A stretch of DNA of 42,917 nt from an uncultured Flavobacteriaceae bacterium (GTDB lineage: Bacteria; Bacteroidota; Bacteroidia; Flavobacteriales; Flavobacteriaceae). The notes below the pieces were generated by a model. It saw nothing but the letters and a program-made list of their open reading frames with translations, was not told the DNA's origin and searched no databases. Position numbers and translations under genes: made by a program. Shown piece after piece: positions 32,581 through 39,884 of the stretch (within the stretch, counting starts at the first letter, position 1; each line of letters starts with the position of its first letter). The stretch is from contig CAJWXC010000003.1 of assembly GCA_913048215.1 (NCBI GenBank), forward strand, positions 1 to 42,917. The letters run 5' to 3'.

Positions 32581-33237
32581 ATGTATTCATTAGCAGAAGA
32601 AAATTACATCAAGGCTATTTTTCATTTACAGCAAACCAAAACTGGCGCTGTAAGTACAAATGCCATTGCAGAAAGTATGGACACAAAAGCATCTTCTGCT
32701 ACAGATATGGTGCAAAAGCTGGCCGATAAAAAGGTGCTCTCATATATTAAATACAAAGGCTCTAAGCTTACCGAAAAAGGGAAGAAAATAGCTACTAGAA
32801 TTGTAAGAAAACATCGTTTGTGGGAGGTCTTTCTTGTAGACAAACTTGGTTTTCACTGGGATGAGGTTCATGAAATTGCAGAGCAATTAGAGCACATTCA
32901 TTCCAATGAACTTATCAAAAGATTAGATGCGTTTTTGGGTAGTCCAGCATTTGATCCTCACGGTGATCCTATTCCAGACGAGCATGGAAATTTCATGAAA
33001 ACAGAAAAAAAGTTGCTTTCCCAATTAAACAAAAGCCAATATGGTGTTTGTGTTGGTGTTAAAGAATCCAGTGCAGAGTATTTACAATATTTAGACAAAA
33101 AGAAAATAAGTATTGGCACTAAAATAAATGTCTTAGGTAAAGAGTTTTTTGATGGCTCTATGGTAATTCAAGTAGGAAGAGATCAGTTTTTTATATCCAA
33201 GCAAATTGCAGAAAATTTATATGTTCAAACAAATTAA
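32581..33237 (+). CDS. DtxR/MntR-family metal-dependent transcriptional regulator
   Basis: The 218-residue product has an N-terminal winged helix (about 1-70: EENYIKAIFHLQ, then AIAESMDTKASSATDMVQKLADKKVLSY as the HTH). A dimerisation and metal-binding helical domain follows (about 72-140: RKHRLWEVFLVDKLG, then EIAEQLEHIHSNELIKRLD and the DPHGDPIP loop). The C-terminal FeoA/SH3-like domain spans about 150-218. The domain order is that of full-length DtxR/IdeR-type repressors rather than short MntR. It is the first gene of a metal ABC importer operon and probably represses it when Mn2+ or Fe2+ is plentiful, acting through the inverted repeat just upstream. The next gene starts one base after its stop. 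Confidence 0.92.
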   Translation: MYSLAEENYIKAIFHLQQTKTGAVSTNAIAESMDTKASSATDMVQKLADKKVLSYIKYKGSKLTEKGKKIATRIVRKHRLWEVFLVDKLGFHWDEVHEIAEQLEHIHSNELIKRLDAFLGSPAFDPHGDPIPDEHGNFMKTEKKLLSQLNKSQYGVCVGVKESSAEYLQYLDKKKISIGTKINVLGKEFFDGSMVIQVGRDQFFISKQIAENLYVQTN

Positions 33238-33238
33238 A

Positions 33239-34147
33239 ATGATTAAAAAAATTATTGTCATGCTTGTTGTAACCGCTTTTTTGGGGTGTAAAAACAATAA
33301 AGTAGACAACGGAAAGCTCAATGTTGTGGTGACCACAACGATGCTAACCGACCTTGTTAAAAACATAGGCGGCGATCTTATCAATCTACAAGGATTAATG
33401 GGAGCGGGAGTAGACCCACATCTATATAAAGCAAGTGAAGGAGATGTTTCAAAACTATTTAACGCAGATGTAGTTTTTTATAACGGACTACATCTGGAAG
33501 GAAAACTGGTGTCTATTTTTGAAAAAATGGAAGCTCAAAAAACAACAGTGGCTCTGGGAGAATTTTTAGCAAAAGACGGCTTGATTGGGTCAGATTATTT
33601 TGCCTCTAATTATGATCCTCATGTGTGGTTTAATATTCAATACTTTAAAGAGTTTTCAAACAAAGTAACTGCTGTTTTATCAAATAAAGACCCAAAAAAC
33701 GCAGAGCGCTATGCGGCAAATAATCTAGCATTCCAGCAAGAATTAGATCTGTTACAAACAAGGGTAGTAGAAGCTATTGCCTCCCTTACGCCAGAGAAGA
33801 GAATTTTAGTTACGGCTCATGATGCTTTTAATTATTTTGGGAAGGCTTACGGCTTTAAAGTTGTTGGGCTTCAAGGGCTCTCTACCGCTACCGAGGCTGG
33901 TGTGCAAGACGTGCAGCAACTCTCTGAGTACATCATACAAAACAACGTGAAGGCTATATTTATTGAAAGCTCTGTGCCCAGAAAAACCATAGAGGCATTA
34001 CAGGCTGCAGTGCTATCAAAAGGCCATCAGGTTTCTATTGGTGGCTCTTTGTATAGCGATGCTCTTGGAGACACTGGGTCTGTAGAAGGAACCTATACAG
34101 GAATGTTTCTGTATAATGTAAAGACTATTGTTAACGCCTTACAATAA
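33239..34147 (+). CDS. Metal ABC transporter substrate-binding lipoprotein (TroA/ZnuA family)
   Basis: This captures Mn2+, Fe2+ or Zn2+ outside the inner membrane and delivers it to the permease. With the ATG at 33239 the product has 302 residues and a lipoprotein signal whose Cys is residue 17 (TAFLGC). An upstream start at 33206 would overlap the preceding gene and add non-signal residues. Expected metal ligands are visible in order: His in GVDPHLYKAS, His in NYDPHVWFN, Glu in IFIESSVPRK and Asp in LYSDALGD. This His-His-Glu-Asp set and the absence of a His-rich loop favour Mn/Fe over Zn. It is the second gene of the operon. Confidence 0.93.
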   Translation: MIKKIIVMLVVTAFLGCKNNKVDNGKLNVVVTTTMLTDLVKNIGGDLINLQGLMGAGVDPHLYKASEGDVSKLFNADVVFYNGLHLEGKLVSIFEKMEAQKTTVALGEFLAKDGLIGSDYFASNYDPHVWFNIQYFKEFSNKVTAVLSNKDPKNAERYAANNLAFQQELDLLQTRVVEAIASLTPEKRILVTAHDAFNYFGKAYGFKVVGLQGLSTATEAGVQDVQQLSEYIIQNNVKAIFIESSVPRKTIEALQAAVLSKGHQVSIGGSLYSDALGDTGSVEGTYTGMFLYNVKTIVNALQ

Positions 34148-34893: not shown

Positions 34894-36018
34894 ATGAGTA
34901 TCACCGAGTATTTCAATCTAATATTTTCAGACTACACCCTACGCAACATTAGCCTAGGAACTGCTGTATTGGGTGTTATATGCGGTATGTTAGGGAGCTT
35001 TGCGGTTTTAAGAAAACAAAGTTTGTTGGGAGATGCTATTTCTCATGCCGCATTGCCTGGCATTGCCCTGGCGTTTTTAATAACTGGCGGCAAAGACAGC
35101 AATGTTTTACTTTTGGGAGCCCTGGTGAGTGGTTTGGTTGGCGCCTTTTGGATTCGTGGAATGATCTCCAAAACCCATTTAAAAAGCGATACAGCATTAG
35201 GGCTCATTTTGTCGCTCTTTTTTGGTTTTGGCATGATGCTCCTTACCTACATACAAAAACAACCCAACGCAAATCAAGCAGGTCTAGACAAGTATTTATT
35301 TGGCCAGGCGGCGACCCTAGTAGAGAGTGATGTTTTGCTAATGATAGGTGTTACAGGTGTCGCTCTTTTGGTAGTACTGTTGTTTTGGAAAGAATTTAAG
35401 CTGCTCCTTTTTGACCAAGACTACACCAAAACCCTCGGGTTTAACACAAAGTTTATAGACATTTTAATAACTTTTTTTATTGTTTTAGCAATTGTAATTG
35501 GGCTTCAGACCGTTGGGGTTGTTTTAATGAGTGCCATGCTCTTAGCGCCTGCCGCTGCAGCAAGACAGTGGACAAGCAGCCTGGCTATGATGGTTTTTCT
35601 TGCCGCACTTATAGGTGGTTTTTCTGGTGTGTTTGGCACTGCAATTAGCGCAACACAAAACAACCTATCTACAGGGCCGGTTATTGTGCTGGTAGCAAGT
35701 TTTTTTGTAGTGATTTCTTTTGTTTTTTCTCCTACCAGGGGGCTGCTGTTTAAACAAATAAGACTCATAAAAAATAGGCGTGATTTAAAGCTTAAAAAAA
35801 CCTTACAGTTTATGTATGGTATTGCCCAAACTCATGAAAACATTGACCACCCTCATACGATAAGAATATTGAATAATTTTCAAGGTTTTACTAAAAAGTC
35901 ATTACGTAAAATGGAAGAAAACCAGTGGATACTCCTTAACAAACAACAATGGTCTCTCACCTCAAAGGGTTTTAAGGAAGCTCAAAACCTTTTTAATCAA
36001 CAACCTCAGCATGAGTAA
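34894..36018 (+). CDS. Metal ABC transporter permease with C-terminal winged-helix-like tail
   Basis: The 374-residue product is a ZnuB/MntC-type permease (about residues 15-285, eight or nine helices) with family motifs LGDAISHAALPGIALAF and VGVVLMSAMLLAPAAAARQW. It then continues for about 85 residues into a cytoplasmic tail after FSPTRGLLF. The tail looks like a winged helix: a helical HTH-like part, then KKSLRKMEENQWILLNKQQW and LTSKGFKEAQNLF, which resembles the wing and final helix of DtxR/MarR-type domains. Ordinary permeases of this family end soon after the last helix. Chlamydial YtgCR, in which a DtxR-like repressor is fused to the permease, is the closest known parallel. The stop overlaps the next permease start by 8 bases. 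Confidence 0.9.
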   Translation: MSITEYFNLIFSDYTLRNISLGTAVLGVICGMLGSFAVLRKQSLLGDAISHAALPGIALAFLITGGKDSNVLLLGALVSGLVGAFWIRGMISKTHLKSDTALGLILSLFFGFGMMLLTYIQKQPNANQAGLDKYLFGQAATLVESDVLLMIGVTGVALLVVLLFWKEFKLLLFDQDYTKTLGFNTKFIDILITFFIVLAIVIGLQTVGVVLMSAMLLAPAAAARQWTSSLAMMVFLAALIGGFSGVFGTAISATQNNLSTGPVIVLVASFFVVISFVFSPTRGLLFKQIRLIKNRRDLKLKKTLQFMYGIAQTHENIDHPHTIRILNNFQGFTKKSLRKMEENQWILLNKQQWSLTSKGFKEAQNLFNQQPQHE

Positions 36019-36823
36019 TCCTCAAATAGAAATACAACTTATTGCGAGTCTGGTTGCAATCTCTTGTGCTATTCCAGGGGTATTTCTGGTGTTGCGAAAA
36101 ATGGCTTTAATTAGTGATGCCATTAGTCACTCTATCTTGCCAGGAATTGTTTTAGGATTTTTTATCACTCAAGATCTTAACTCTCCTATATTAATTATGT
36201 TGGCTGCCGGTACTGGAATTATTACAGTGGTGCTTGTAGAGCGTATCCAAAAAACAGGTCTTGTAAAAGAAGATACTGCTATTGGTCTTGTGTTTCCTGC
36301 CCTTTTTAGTATTGGGGTCTTATTAATTGCTAAAAATGCCAATGATATTCATCTAGATATAGACGCAGTCTTACTTGGAGAGTTGGCTTTTGCACCCTTT
36401 GATAGATTTCTACTCTTTGGAACAGATCTTGGGCCAAAAGCAGGCTGGGTGATGGGGGTTATTTTACTTATTACCTTGGTGCTATTGTATTTGTTTTTTA
36501 AAGAATTGAAAGTAAGCACATTTGATGTTGGTCTGTCTTCTGCCCTTGGTTTTTCACCAGCTATTTTACATTACGGACTAATGTCTGTGTCTTCTATTAC
36601 TGTGGTAGGAGCTTTTGACGCCGTAGGAGCCATACTGGTAGTTGCCCTTATGATTGCTCCTGCTGCCACCGCGTATTTACTTACCTCAGATTTAAAAAAA
36701 ATGTTGTGGCTTTCTGTCTGTTTTGGAGTTTTTGCGGCCATTGGCGGCTATTGGCTAGCGCACTGGCTAGACGCCAATATTGCGGGATCTATCACTACCA
36801 TACTTGCGGTGGTATTTTGCTAG
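36011..36823 (+). CDS. Second metal ABC transporter permease, truncated by an apparent frameshift
   Basis: The product is a complete permease core of 270 residues, with LISDAISHSILPGIVLGFF and VGAILVVALMIAPAATAYLL. The reading frame stops at a TAG (36821-36823) just inside the last helix (SITTILAVVFC). If one T is added to the T run at 36815-36818, the frame continues as VFLLVYFFAPKKGML, the normal family ending, which also aligns with the other permease. It would then run on to 37170 for 386 residues in all. So a one-base deletion, either real or a sequencing error, is likely. The core may still work, since many relatives end close to this point. Confidence 0.88.
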   Translation: MSNPQIEIQLIASLVAISCAIPGVFLVLRKMALISDAISHSILPGIVLGFFITQDLNSPILIMLAAGTGIITVVLVERIQKTGLVKEDTAIGLVFPALFSIGVLLIAKNANDIHLDIDAVLLGELAFAPFDRFLLFGTDLGPKAGWVMGVILLITLVLLYLFFKELKVSTFDVGLSSALGFSPAILHYGLMSVSSITVVGAFDAVGAILVVALMIAPAATAYLLTSDLKKMLWLSVCFGVFAAIGGYWLAHWLDANIAGSITTILAVVFC

Positions 36824-37170
36824 TGTATTTTTTTGCTCCTAAAAAGGGGATGTTGTCTGTCATGTATCGACAAAAACAGCAGCGCACAGAAGTTTCTTTA
36901 CTTACTTTTTTATTGCACCTTAACAATCATCAAGAAACAAAGGAGCGGCATATCAATCATTTGCGAGAGCACATTAATTGGCAACAGGTAAAAGCAAACA
37001 CCGTTGTAAAATTAGCCCTTGATAACAATATGATAACCATCACAGACAACGTTATCACCCTTACACAAAAGGGGCTTAGTTTTACTCAAACTGCCTTAGC
37101 GTATATTATTACCAATAAAGACGATAAAATAGAACACCTGAAGGATGACTTCTTTTTATTTAGAGGGTAG
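36824..37170 (+). pseudogene. Displaced C-terminal winged-helix-like tail of the second permease
   Basis: In the -1 frame, the permease sequence resumes (YFFAPKKGML) and continues through about 100 residues to a stop at 37170. The tail is helix-rich, then KANTVVKLALDNNMITITDNVITLTQKGLSFTQ, which has the HTH-wing-helix look of a winged-helix domain and parallels the tail of the first permease. An ATG at 36850 could start it as a separate protein of 106 residues (MLSVMYRQKQQ). It is best read as the severed end of the preceding gene. No classical slippery heptamer with a following structure is evident. Confidence 0.75.
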
Positions 37171-37194: not shown

Positions 37195-37599
37195 ATGAAA
37201 AAATTACTGCTTATTTTTAGTCTGGCTAGTATCATATCTTGCCAAGTATTGGACCAAAAACAACATACAGCCGCTACTACTTTTTTAGTGCCCCTTGGAA
37301 ATACAATTACTACATCTGGAGTTGCTATAACTCTAGATGCCGTTTTAGAAGACTCTAGGTGTCCTAGAAATACAACCTGTATTTGGGAAGGAAGAGCAGT
37401 AGTGAAAATTAGTATTACGCATCCCAAACAAAAAATCCGGGAGCTAACCGTGGTTTTTAAAAACCAAGAGCAAAGCATTATCACCCGCACAGAGGATGCT
37501 GTTTTTACAGCCCTGAAATTACTTCCCTATCCTGGTGGGGCTACCAGCAAAAAACTAGGGTATCAATTACAAGTTTCTTACAAAAAGAGTACTAATTAA
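37195..37599 (+). CDS. Small lipoprotein of unknown function
   Basis: The 134-residue product begins with a lipoprotein signal peptide (SLASIISC, lipidated Cys at residue 16). The rest is a beta-rich domain containing EDSRCPRNTTCIWEGRAVV (residues about 52-70), with two cysteines that could form a disulfide. I have seen similar DSRCP-x-CIW-x-G stretches in many uncharacterised Bacteroidota lipoproteins, so it belongs to a widespread but unstudied family. It starts 24 bases after the permease tail, so it may be the last gene of the metal operon, and it converges with the feo genes. Confidence 0.75.
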   Translation: MKKLLLIFSLASIISCQVLDQKQHTAATTFLVPLGNTITTSGVAITLDAVLEDSRCPRNTTCIWEGRAVVKISITHPKQKIRELTVVFKNQEQSIITRTEDAVFTALKLLPYPGGATSKKLGYQLQVSYKKSTN

Positions 37600-37784: not shown

Positions 37785-39884
37785 TTATTTAAACCATTGG
37801 TATGCTCCAAGGGCTGTAATATAAGCAATAGCTGTCATTATTACTAATTGCCATAGGGGCCATTTCCAACTATTTGTTTCTCGTTTTACTACTGCAAGTG
37901 TGCTCATACACTGCATGGCAAAAGCATAAAAAAGTAACAAAGAAACACCGCTTGCAAAATTAAAAAGGGGTTTTCCTGTTTGTAGGTTGGTTTCTGCGGC
38001 CATTCTGTTTTTGATGGTTTCTACGTCATCGTTTCCAACACTATAAATAGTGGCAAGAGTTCCTACAAAAACCTCTCTTGCGGCAAAAGAGCTTATCAGG
38101 GCTATGCCTATTTTCCAGTCATACCCCAGTGGTTTTACCGCAGGCTCAATAAATTTACCAGCATGACCAATATAGCTATGTTCTAGTTTAAATGCCGCTA
38201 TTTCTGTTTCTAGCTCATTTTGTGAAATAGGCGTTTCTAGGTTTTGTTGCTGTATAATGGCCTGGGCATTGTTAAAATCTCCTGGGCCGTATGATGCCAA
38301 TACCCATAGTATTATAGAGATCGCTAGAATGATTTTACCGGCACCAAGGACAAATGATTTTGTTTTTTCTACCACGGTAATACCTACATTTTTAAACAGC
38401 GGTAATTTATAATTTGGCATTTCTATTACAAAAAATGTTTTGCTGCGTATTTGTAATACTTTATCTAGCATCCATGCAGATATAATTGCCGCTCCAAAAC
38501 CTAACAAATACATAAACATTAAAGTAAGTGCTTGCAGGCTAAAGATACCCAACACGCGCTGCTCTGGTATGACCAAGGCAATGATGATAAGATACACAGG
38601 AAGCCTTGCAGAACAGGTGGTAAAGGGTGTTACTAAGATGGTGATGAGTCTCTCTTTCCAGTTCTCTATATTACGGGTGGCCATAATTGCCGGGATAGCA
38701 CAAGCGGTTCCAGCAATAAGAGGGACAACACTCTTACCACTTAAGCCGAAACGGCGCATGACACGATCCATTAAAAACACCACTCTACTCATGTAGCCAC
38801 TTTCTTCTAGAATAGATATAAAGAAAAACAAAAAGGCAATTTGCGGGATAAAAATAATAATCCCGCCCAAACCAGGGATAATACCCTCTGCTATTAAGTT
38901 GGTGAAATCTCCGGCGGGGAGCGTGCTTTTAGCCCATTCTCCTAGAGAGGCAAAGGTGCTATCTATAAAATCCATAGGGTAGCTGCTCCAATCAAAAATA
39001 GCCTGAAAAATAAGCAGCAAAACCCCAAAGAAAATCACGTAGCCCCAAAATTTATGCATTAAAATACGATCTAGACGACTCCTAAAATCTTTGGCACTTG
39101 CCTTATCTACCATAAGGGTTTGTTTAAGCACCTCATTGATAAACTGGTAGCGCTTTATGGTTTCTTTTTGCTGTAATCTTTTAAGATTGCTAATACTCTC
39201 TGTTTTAAAGCTAGCAACTCCTTTTAACTCATTTCTGTCTAGTTTTCCAAAGTTTACATCTTGGGTTATAACAAGCCAGAGCTTGTAAAGGTCTTGATTT
39301 GGGAATGTTTTTCTGAGCCTGTCAAAATATTCTGGAGCAATACTAGAGGCGTTCAAGCAAGGAGCAACGGAGAGTCTTTTGTAATTTGTAATAAGGTCTT
39401 TTAATTGCTCAAAACCTTCGTTTTCTCTAGAACTAATAAGGGCTATTTTGGTTTCAAGGCTTTGCTCTAAGGCGGTAATATCAAGGGTGATGGCTTTGCG
39501 CTTCATGCGGTCTGCCATGTTAATAACCAATATAGTAGGAATCCCTAAATCTTTAATTTGTGTAAAGAGCAGTAAATTTCTTTTTAAGTTTTCTATGTCT
39601 GTAACCACAACAGCTACATCTGGGAAATCCTTGTCATTTTTATTAAGTAGTAGCTCAATAACTACATTTTCATCTAGAGAAGAGGCATTTAAACTATAGG
39701 TTCCAGGCAAATCCAGCACATGGGCTTTTACCCCACGGGGCAGTTTGCAAATACCCTGCTTTTTCTCTACAGTTATCCCCGGGTAGTTTCCCACTTGCTG
39801 GTTGAGCCCTGTGAGTCTATTAAAGACAGAGGTCTTTCCTGTATTAGGGTTTCCAATTAGTGCAACGTTAAACTGTTTTGCCAT
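37785..39884 (-). CDS. feoB: Ferrous iron transport protein B
   Basis: FeoB is the GTP-dependent Fe2+ importer of the inner membrane. The 699-residue product has the N-terminal G domain: G1 GNPNTGKT at residues 11-18, the G2 region VGNYPGITVEKK, G3 DLPGTYSL and G4 NMADR. A helical linker follows, then a membrane domain with the two Gate motifs (about residues 330-460) including SGKSVVPLIAGTACAIPAIMATR and VTPFTTCSARLPVY. The cysteines in those two gates are present. feoA lies 3 bases upstream and the small Cys-rich protein 6 bases downstream, so the three form an operon. Confidence 0.98.
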   Translation of the reverse strand: MAKQFNVALIGNPNTGKTSVFNRLTGLNQQVGNYPGITVEKKQGICKLPRGVKAHVLDLPGTYSLNASSLDENVVIELLLNKNDKDFPDVAVVVTDIENLKRNLLLFTQIKDLGIPTILVINMADRMKRKAITLDITALEQSLETKIALISSRENEGFEQLKDLITNYKRLSVAPCLNASSIAPEYFDRLRKTFPNQDLYKLWLVITQDVNFGKLDRNELKGVASFKTESISNLKRLQQKETIKRYQFINEVLKQTLMVDKASAKDFRSRLDRILMHKFWGYVIFFGVLLLIFQAIFDWSSYPMDFIDSTFASLGEWAKSTLPAGDFTNLIAEGIIPGLGGIIIFIPQIAFLFFFISILEESGYMSRVVFLMDRVMRRFGLSGKSVVPLIAGTACAIPAIMATRNIENWKERLITILVTPFTTCSARLPVYLIIIALVIPEQRVLGIFSLQALTLMFMYLLGFGAAIISAWMLDKVLQIRSKTFFVIEMPNYKLPLFKNVGITVVEKTKSFVLGAGKIILAISIILWVLASYGPGDFNNAQAIIQQQNLETPISQNELETEIAAFKLEHSYIGHAGKFIEPAVKPLGYDWKIGIALISSFAAREVFVGTLATIYSVGNDDVETIKNRMAAETNLQTGKPLFNFASGVSLLLFYAFAMQCMSTLAVVKRETNSWKWPLWQLVIMTAIAYITALGAYQWFK

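Follow-up and report, generated by a model that had tools for sequence, protein, structure and literature searches.

Predicted winged-helix tails on both permeases of a putative DtxR-controlled metal importer of the Flavobacteriaceae and their relation to permease-DtxR fusions

The window analyzed here, a stretch of 42,917 nucleotides from an uncultured Flavobacteriaceae bacterium (contig CAJWXC010000003.1, assembly GCA_913048215.1), carries an operon with the gene order dtxR, substrate-binding protein, ATPase and two ABC-3 (ATP-binding cassette) permeases, which are denominated P1 and P2 in the following. Both permeases extend about 75-113 residues past their membrane part into a tail for which a winged-helix fold is predicted. 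Sequence comparisons argue firmly that the P1 tail is the truncated remainder of a permease that was fused to a DtxR module, and the same ancestry is likely, although not proven, for the P2 tail. We suggest that the operon encodes a DtxR/MntR-controlled ABC-3 metal importer in which the two tails would act as a pair of domains tuning transport, and we give this explanation as a whole a probability of about one half.

Fold, conservation and distribution of the tails

The initial annotation had proposed that both permeases continue into a winged-helix-like tail, and AlphaFold2 indeed predicts such a fold for each of them and not an unrelated one. Both models show the succession helix-helix-helix-strand-strand-helix with a predicted template modelling score of 0.67; the predicted local distance difference test values (pLDDT) are given in Table 1. 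For P1, the ends of the Pfam and phmmer matches leave an extra C-terminal part of about 76-96 residues. The phmmer match with the solved Mn permease chain 7kyp_B covers residues 4-298, and the solved chains of this permease (7kyo and 7kyp, 282 and 290 residues), although they share the core with P1, match it only up to residues 290-298 and lack a winged-helix tail.

Winged-helix regulators make up most of the best structural neighbours of both tails in the PDB, MntR or IdeR appearing in each list; methyltransferases, Hel308 and others are present as well. The VIA Z scores of 9.2 for the P1 tail (with AF1382) and 9.6 for the P2 tail (with MepR) are just modestly above the level which the tool states for unclear models; the corresponding scores with E. 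coli MntR (2h09) are 8.4 and 8.9. When the tail models were compared to the PDB with Foldseek, the best E values were 0.010 for P1 and 0.021 for P2, none being at or below 0.001. Because chains of MarR, PadR, CggR and MntR score close together, the predicted fold by itself names no family. Pfam scans of 34 members per tail gave only weak matches, a part of which concern winged-helix families: HTH_45 in 14 P1 tails (best E 0.012), and WH_AprA in 9 (best E 0.0069) and EAP30 in 10 (best E 0.00023) of the P2 tails. A match to the DtxR family was found neither in these scans nor in the Pfam and NCBIfam scans of the window tails themselves, and a sequence search of the PDB with profiles of the tails returned nothing under E 0.3.

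The median ratio of nonsynonymous to synonymous substitution rates (dN/dS) in P1, calculated from the 9 of 45 pairs that could be used, is 0.053 in the tail as compared to 0.051 in the membrane part. Since the tail value is about as low as that of the membrane part, the P1 tail is under purifying selection and does not represent a chance read-through. The mean pairwise identity of P1 is 0.875 in the membrane part and 0.659 in the tail (76 rows). The respective values for P2 are 0.834 and 0.770 (79 rows), with a dN/dS of 0.049 for the membrane part and 0.044 for the tail, both from the single usable pair of 21. The C-terminus FFLFRG of P2 (37144-37167), which follows a short predicted helix, is near-invariant and missing in one relative (L151). 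The P2 of another relative (L174, genome G612) has 464 amino acids and exceeds the usual length by about 78 residues; the insertion lies at the last membrane helix, and the tail is still intact.

Within the window itself the P2 gene is broken, as had been assumed in the initial annotation: a one-base difference from two relatives, which explains the break, lies within positions 36800-36825, and the tail is encoded in another frame than the ABC-3 body. Both tails are present, and P2 is intact with 385-411 amino acids, in 79 of 80 named relatives, the contig of the 80th ending inside P2. These named loci are the 80 top-ranking ones among at least 555 matches to P1 and are hence biased towards the same type of operon. 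Inside the genus, the gene is also broken in G010 (locus L006) and intact in G003 and G007; the contigs of G001 and G002 end within P2. The break could be an assembly error or a real hot spot. The source genome is fragmentary (1.82 Mb in 151 contigs, 83% complete).

Beyond the named loci the tails are conserved and occur together. In a survey of 299 genomes of the family, the profile of the P2 tail matched 119 and that of the P1 tail 118, and 116 genomes contained both tails; these are also present in the cultured genera Dokdonia, Winogradskyella, Aequorivita and Algibacter. The exceptions, each matched by one profile, are G557 and G558, in which the weak matches are free DtxR genes instead of permeases (counted within the 119 and 118 and outside the 116), G596 and G702, which are both 76% complete, and G719 with a degenerate match. 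On the level of the order (246 genomes), the P2-tail profile matched 7 genomes and the P1-tail profile 14. Among the 14 matches, 7 fall within P1 genes of greater length (open frames 432-459), and the one in G338 is weak and broken. The two-tailed operon was furthermore seen in L063, L103 and L109, records named Membranihabitans (Saprospiraceae) and Brumimicrobium (Crocinitomicaceae), whose P1 shows 75-77% identity to that of the window, suggesting either horizontal transfer or misnamed records.

Relation to permease-DtxR fusions

The 7 longer P1 genes found in the order all read as fusions to a complete DtxR module, and both PF00950 and PF02742 were found in the four fusions that were fully read (P0004-P0007). 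In a survey of the class comprising 198 Bacteroidia genomes, 53 match at 1e-20, and in 36 the P1 match extends over the membrane part and on to the end of the metal domain. A profile of 20 fused tails (A4) matched SloR with an E value of 3.1e-21 and also other DtxR-family repressors and MntR, in each case over both domains, and the fused metal/dimer domain was aligned to the free one by hhalign with 99.3%. The segments HRLWE, DHxH and AExxEH, which we take to be the metal ligands by analogy to the DtxR/MntR structures, are retained in nearly all of these 20 fused tails. In none of the 30 distinct fused genomes in which P2 was read does it carry a tail, and in the 8 fused loci with enough flank a free dtxR heads the same operon, with the order dtxR-substrate-binding protein-ATPase-P1-P2. 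A gene with PF01325 was found within 5 kb of P1 in 17 of 30 fused genomes, elsewhere in 10 and in none of the remaining 3 (G046, G118 and G120); if the latter genomes are complete, the fused module might be their sole DtxR. In L139 and L142 the P1 fusions have about 500 amino acids and extend beyond the metal domain into a third part of FeoA-like appearance, which looks like a whole three-domain MntR fused to the permease.

The P1 tail is homologous to the winged helix of these fusions. In detail, hhalign gave a score of 47.5 for the P1 tail against the fused winged helix, with a maximum of 19.1 in the controls (40 column shuffles); the fused against the free DtxR winged helix scored 50.7 (shuffled maximum 16.0) and the P1 tail against the P2 tail 27.1 (shuffled maximum 20.9). 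The window tails stop before the HRLWE segment, and PF02742 is absent from them in the Pfam scans. On the strength of these profile comparisons we consider the derivation of the P1 tail from a truncated permease-DtxR fusion, and with it its DtxR ancestry, to be firm, and the DtxR ancestry of the P2 tail to be likely only, because the hhalign scores of the latter are weaker.

The phylogenetic analysis of the membrane domain points in the same direction. A quick tree was generated from 86 chosen rows including 11 of the 96 short-tailed P1. In this tree the short-tailed P1 form one clade (Shimodaira-Hasegawa-like approximate likelihood ratio test, SH-aLRT, 96) which is nested within the full fusions and is joined by the tail-less P1 of L151 (SH-aLRT 100). 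The tailed P2, including that of L151, form one clade as well (SH-aLRT 100). Of the 83 forks 33 are open, and some branches are long (L141, L029 and others). Forcing the full fusions apart from the short-tailed P1 cost 57 log units with p = 0.039 in the approximately unbiased test, a result which is mildly decisive and stems from a test chosen once the tree had been seen. The P1 of the Bacteroidia fusions (e.g. L024-L027, L114-L136 and L152-L160) thus belongs to the same clade as that of the window; these fusions differ from the window operon in that P1 has kept the metal/dimer domain and P2 is bare.

P1 would accordingly stem from a permease to which an entire DtxR module was fused. Back in the lineage's ancestor, P1 would have shed the metal-binding/dimerization domain and retained the winged helix, and P2 would have gained a winged-helix tail of its own, resulting in a heterodimeric permease with two tails. 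Such a single transition is the simplest reading; in L151 the P1 tail would either have been lost or never kept.

The initial annotation had compared the operon to YtgCR of Chlamydia, a permease-DtxR fusion whose released DtxR-like part acts as a repressor according to the respective reports (PMC7755916, PMC5599777). With regard to architecture this parallel is justified: in both cases an ABC-3 metal permease with a C-terminal module derived from DtxR is encoded in an ABC metal-importer operon, and the P1 tail traces back to permease-DtxR fusions. In contrast to YtgCR, the window tails consist of the winged helix only, are found on both permeases and are accompanied by a separate DtxR, as is the case in 27 of the 30 fused Bacteroidia genomes; the likeness is drawn from the published descriptions of YtgCR. 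By title or abstract no paper on a permease-DtxR fusion outside Chlamydia was found, in a search covering few subscription papers.

The operon and its free regulator

The regulator at the head of the operon is a complete DtxR-family repressor, in agreement with the initial annotation, as Pfam finds the winged helix, the metal/dimer domain and the FeoA domain. The predicted operator lies 42-61 bases 5' of the start of the free dtxR, its chance expectation in the window being 0.08 at up to 2 mismatches. Of 21 sequences (the window and 20 loci with a dtxR of more than 60% identity), 20 have the core TTAG-N6-CTAA in the 120 bases preceding dtxR, versus 0 of 116 other open reading frame starts. Given the free DtxR and the conserved operator, transcription therefore has its own regulator. 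As a marker of a larger regulon the operator was rejected: the 20-mer occurs perfectly once more in the genome, between convergent genes (L181) and not at a promoter, and sites with 2 mismatches elsewhere in the genome number 4 versus 2 for a backward control pattern. No additional operator target is claimed beyond the dtxR operon.

The top NCBIfam match of the ATPase is PRK15056, an Mn/Fe ATP-binding protein, under its curated cut-off, and the substrate of the importer is probably Mn or Fe. The ABC_tran match of the ATPase covers residues 24-167, and no regulatory domain was found among the matches listed (25 of 28 Pfam families). Downstream of the importer follow a 134-amino-acid protein without Pfam match (37195-37599, + strand) and a convergent feoB (37785-39884, - strand), a pair that is also found after P2 in 20 of the 80 named loci.

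Table 1. Coordinates of the operon, its predicted operator and the permease tails within the window
Feature	Position	Strand	Evidence and remarks
Palindromic DtxR/MntR-type operator, TTTTTAG-N6-CTAAAAA	32520..32539	.	Exact match, 5' of free dtxR; binding predicted only
Free DtxR/MntR-family regulator, 218 aa	32581..33237	+	PF01325 (7.4e-13), PF02742 (2.7e-34), PF04023 (FeoA), all above cut-off
Substrate-binding protein, ZnuA/MntC type	33206..34147	+	PF01297, E 7.7e-71; listed open reading frame, real start perhaps a few codons later
ATPase subunit, Mn/Fe importer type, 245 aa	34151..34888	+	PF00005; without C-terminal regulatory extension
P1, ABC-3 permease with winged-helix tail, 374 aa	34894..36018	+	PF00950 at residues 14-278, E 2.4e-73; intact open reading frame
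P1 tail, 97 residues, linker and predicted winged helix, read as truncated relic of fused DtxR module	35725..36015	+	AlphaFold2 pLDDT 81.3; hhalign
P1 tail His motif, tail positions 37, 42, 44	35833..35856	+	H37 in 95/96, H42 in 90/96, H44 in 95/96 rows
P2, ABC-3 permease, membrane part in first frame	36011..36823	+	PF00950, E 9.1e-49
P2 tail, 113 residues, predicted winged helix and C-terminal helix, conserved end FFLFRG	36829..37167	+	AlphaFold2 pLDDT 72.8; hhalign to P1 tail
P2 tail double HxxxH, tail positions 30, 34, 44, 48, with E39, E47, W51	36916..36972	+	Near-invariant

Possible function of the tails

Our preferred explanation is that transcription would be handled by the free DtxR whose gene opens the operon, and that the tails would not read DNA. 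They would be located in the cytosol near the ATPases, a position suggested by the topology of ABC-3 permeases, and would constitute an intramolecular regulatory or coupling pair which tunes transport in the manner of a trans-inhibition gate. For a module which probably began with intact metal ligands, is placed on a permease and appears to have lost its DNA-reading constraint, the simplest remaining use would be the regulation or coupling of transport. The principle proposed here is similar to that of MetNI and ModBC, in which, according to PMC10710835, a cytosolic add-on domain on the ATPase subunit throttles the importer; in the window the add-on domains are found on the permeases instead of the ATPase, and the feedback is a proposal.

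DNA binding by the tails, which had been considered in the initial annotation, is not borne out by the fusions. In the same 8 genomes, the identity of the recognition helix is 0.375 in the fused as compared to 0.64 in the free DtxR, whereas the values for helix 1 (0.679 versus 0.673) and for the metal domain (0.662 versus 0.734) are similar to each other or differ less. In unpaired sets of 20 sequences each, the identity of the recognition helix was 0.647 in the free and 0.335 in the fused proteins. At E 0.001, none of the 30 fused P1 genes scanned gave a match to PF01325, while a free PF01325 protein is present in 27 of the same 30 genomes. Judged from these alignments, the DNA-recognition helix of the fusions has lost constraint while the metal/dimer domain has kept it. 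The tails have the winged-helix fold in common with the MntR, DtxR and SloR repressors, but they are parts of membrane proteins without the metal/dimer domain, and the recognition-helix signature of these repressors is not retained in the Bacteroidia fusions. In addition, the free DtxR and its operator already provide for a repressor.

For these reasons, namely the unconserved recognition helix, the free DtxR and the missing metal/dimer domain, it is quite improbable that the tails work like YtgR, i.e. as DNA-binding repressors that are either tethered to the membrane or released by proteolysis. The architecture and the predicted winged-helix fold are what one would expect of such a repressor, and the basic nature of the fused winged helices (median isoelectric point, pI, 9.8), which is shared by the P1 tail (median pI 9.1), raises its probability slightly. 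The P2 tail, however, is slightly acidic (pI 6.1), and the mechanism of release, Fe-dependent dimerization and repression is inapplicable as such to tails without the metal/dimer domain. The mechanistic half of the parallel to YtgCR is thus probably wrong.

Sensing or gating of transport by the tails, or binding of the regulator, had also been put forward in the initial annotation, and these roles are possible. The specific suggestion that the free DtxR is bound by the tails and thereby sequestered or loaded, which would link transport activity to repression, nevertheless appears very doubtful to us. In its favour, the operon encodes the regulator together with the tails, and the full fusions with their DtxR metal/dimer domain could form heterodimers. 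The dimer domain is the known contact surface of DtxR, and it is precisely this domain which the window tails lack. Moreover, a dtxR of at least 50% identity to that of the window was found in only 30 of the 80 named loci, judged from the flanks examined, some of which are short.

The tails are rich in histidine, with 4.7% in the P1 tail and 4.9% in the P2 tail as compared to 2.0% in the fused winged helices. The near-invariant histidines sit at different positions in the two tails, and most of them are lacking in the full fusions. In the P2 tail H30, H34, E39, H44 and W51 are each found in 95 of 95 rows, H48 in 94 and E47 in 93, with a Glu at position 48 in L173; the His motif of the P1 tail is lost in L165. 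In the AlphaFold2 model of the P2 tail, one HxxxH pair ends helix 1 and the other is located on helix 2, a layout that might be suited to a metal site. It is conceivable that, once the DtxR metal domain was lost, new metal sites arose in the tails on the cytosolic side, formed by the two HxxxH pairs on neighbouring helices of P2 and by H37, H42 and H44 elsewhere in the fold of P1, and that the two tails pair into a heterodimeric gate which closes the importer at high metal in the cytosol. We regard this as unlikely. The histidines of P1 and P2 are found in different columns of the joint alignment, for which reason a His site shared by both tails was rejected. Furthermore, histidines of the full fusions (n=20) face the P2 positions H30 in 6, H34 in 0, H44 in 2 and H48 in 1 case, suggesting that H30, and so a part of the His pattern, may be inherited and old. 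Both observations lower the probability of a re-invented metal site.

The tails might also be purely structural, enforcing the pairing of P1 with P2 or steadying the interface to the ATPase without any sensing. This is rather unlikely. In its favour, the tails co-occur in the 116 of 299 genomes mentioned above, the basic P1 tail could pair with the slightly acidic P2 tail, and the canonical metal domain is gone. On the other hand, the P1 fusions of the ancestral type retain the DtxR metal ligands, so that the module probably started as a sensor, each of the two tails contains near-invariant histidines, and L151 still has the P2 tail with its His pairs although its P1 has no tail.

Several points weigh against the explanation of the tails as a transport-tuning pair. 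The hhalign scores of the P2 tail are weak (22.2 against the fused winged helix, shuffled maximum 17.1; 26.0 against the free one, shuffled maximum 16.6), and the tail alignments are shallow, with 34 rows and an effective number of sequences (Neff) of about 2. The recognition helices were compared in the full fusions and not in the window tails. A basic character is common among DNA-binding domains, and since the P1 tail and the fused winged helices share it, they may bind DNA unspecifically. In L151 (G393, same order) the P2 tail is kept together with its His pairs next to a bare P1 of 297 amino acids, and in L137 and L029 both P1 and P2 are bare, so that the tails are dispensable there. Finally, the regulatory role is one that we infer, as are the ancestry of the P2 tail, the heterodimer and metal as the signal.

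The literature searched describes the permease-DtxR fusion for Chlamydia only, as the origin of a repressor. In the Bacteroidia the fusion is common, usually beside a free DtxR, and one lineage appears to have swapped it for two winged helices, one on each permease. This points to a regulator that has become an integral component of the importer, perhaps even its controller, and the system allows a direct test of whether a metal importer can recruit a transcription-factor module as its post-translational gate. If the histidines of the tails do constitute re-invented metal sites, a DNA-binding domain would have become a transport gate.

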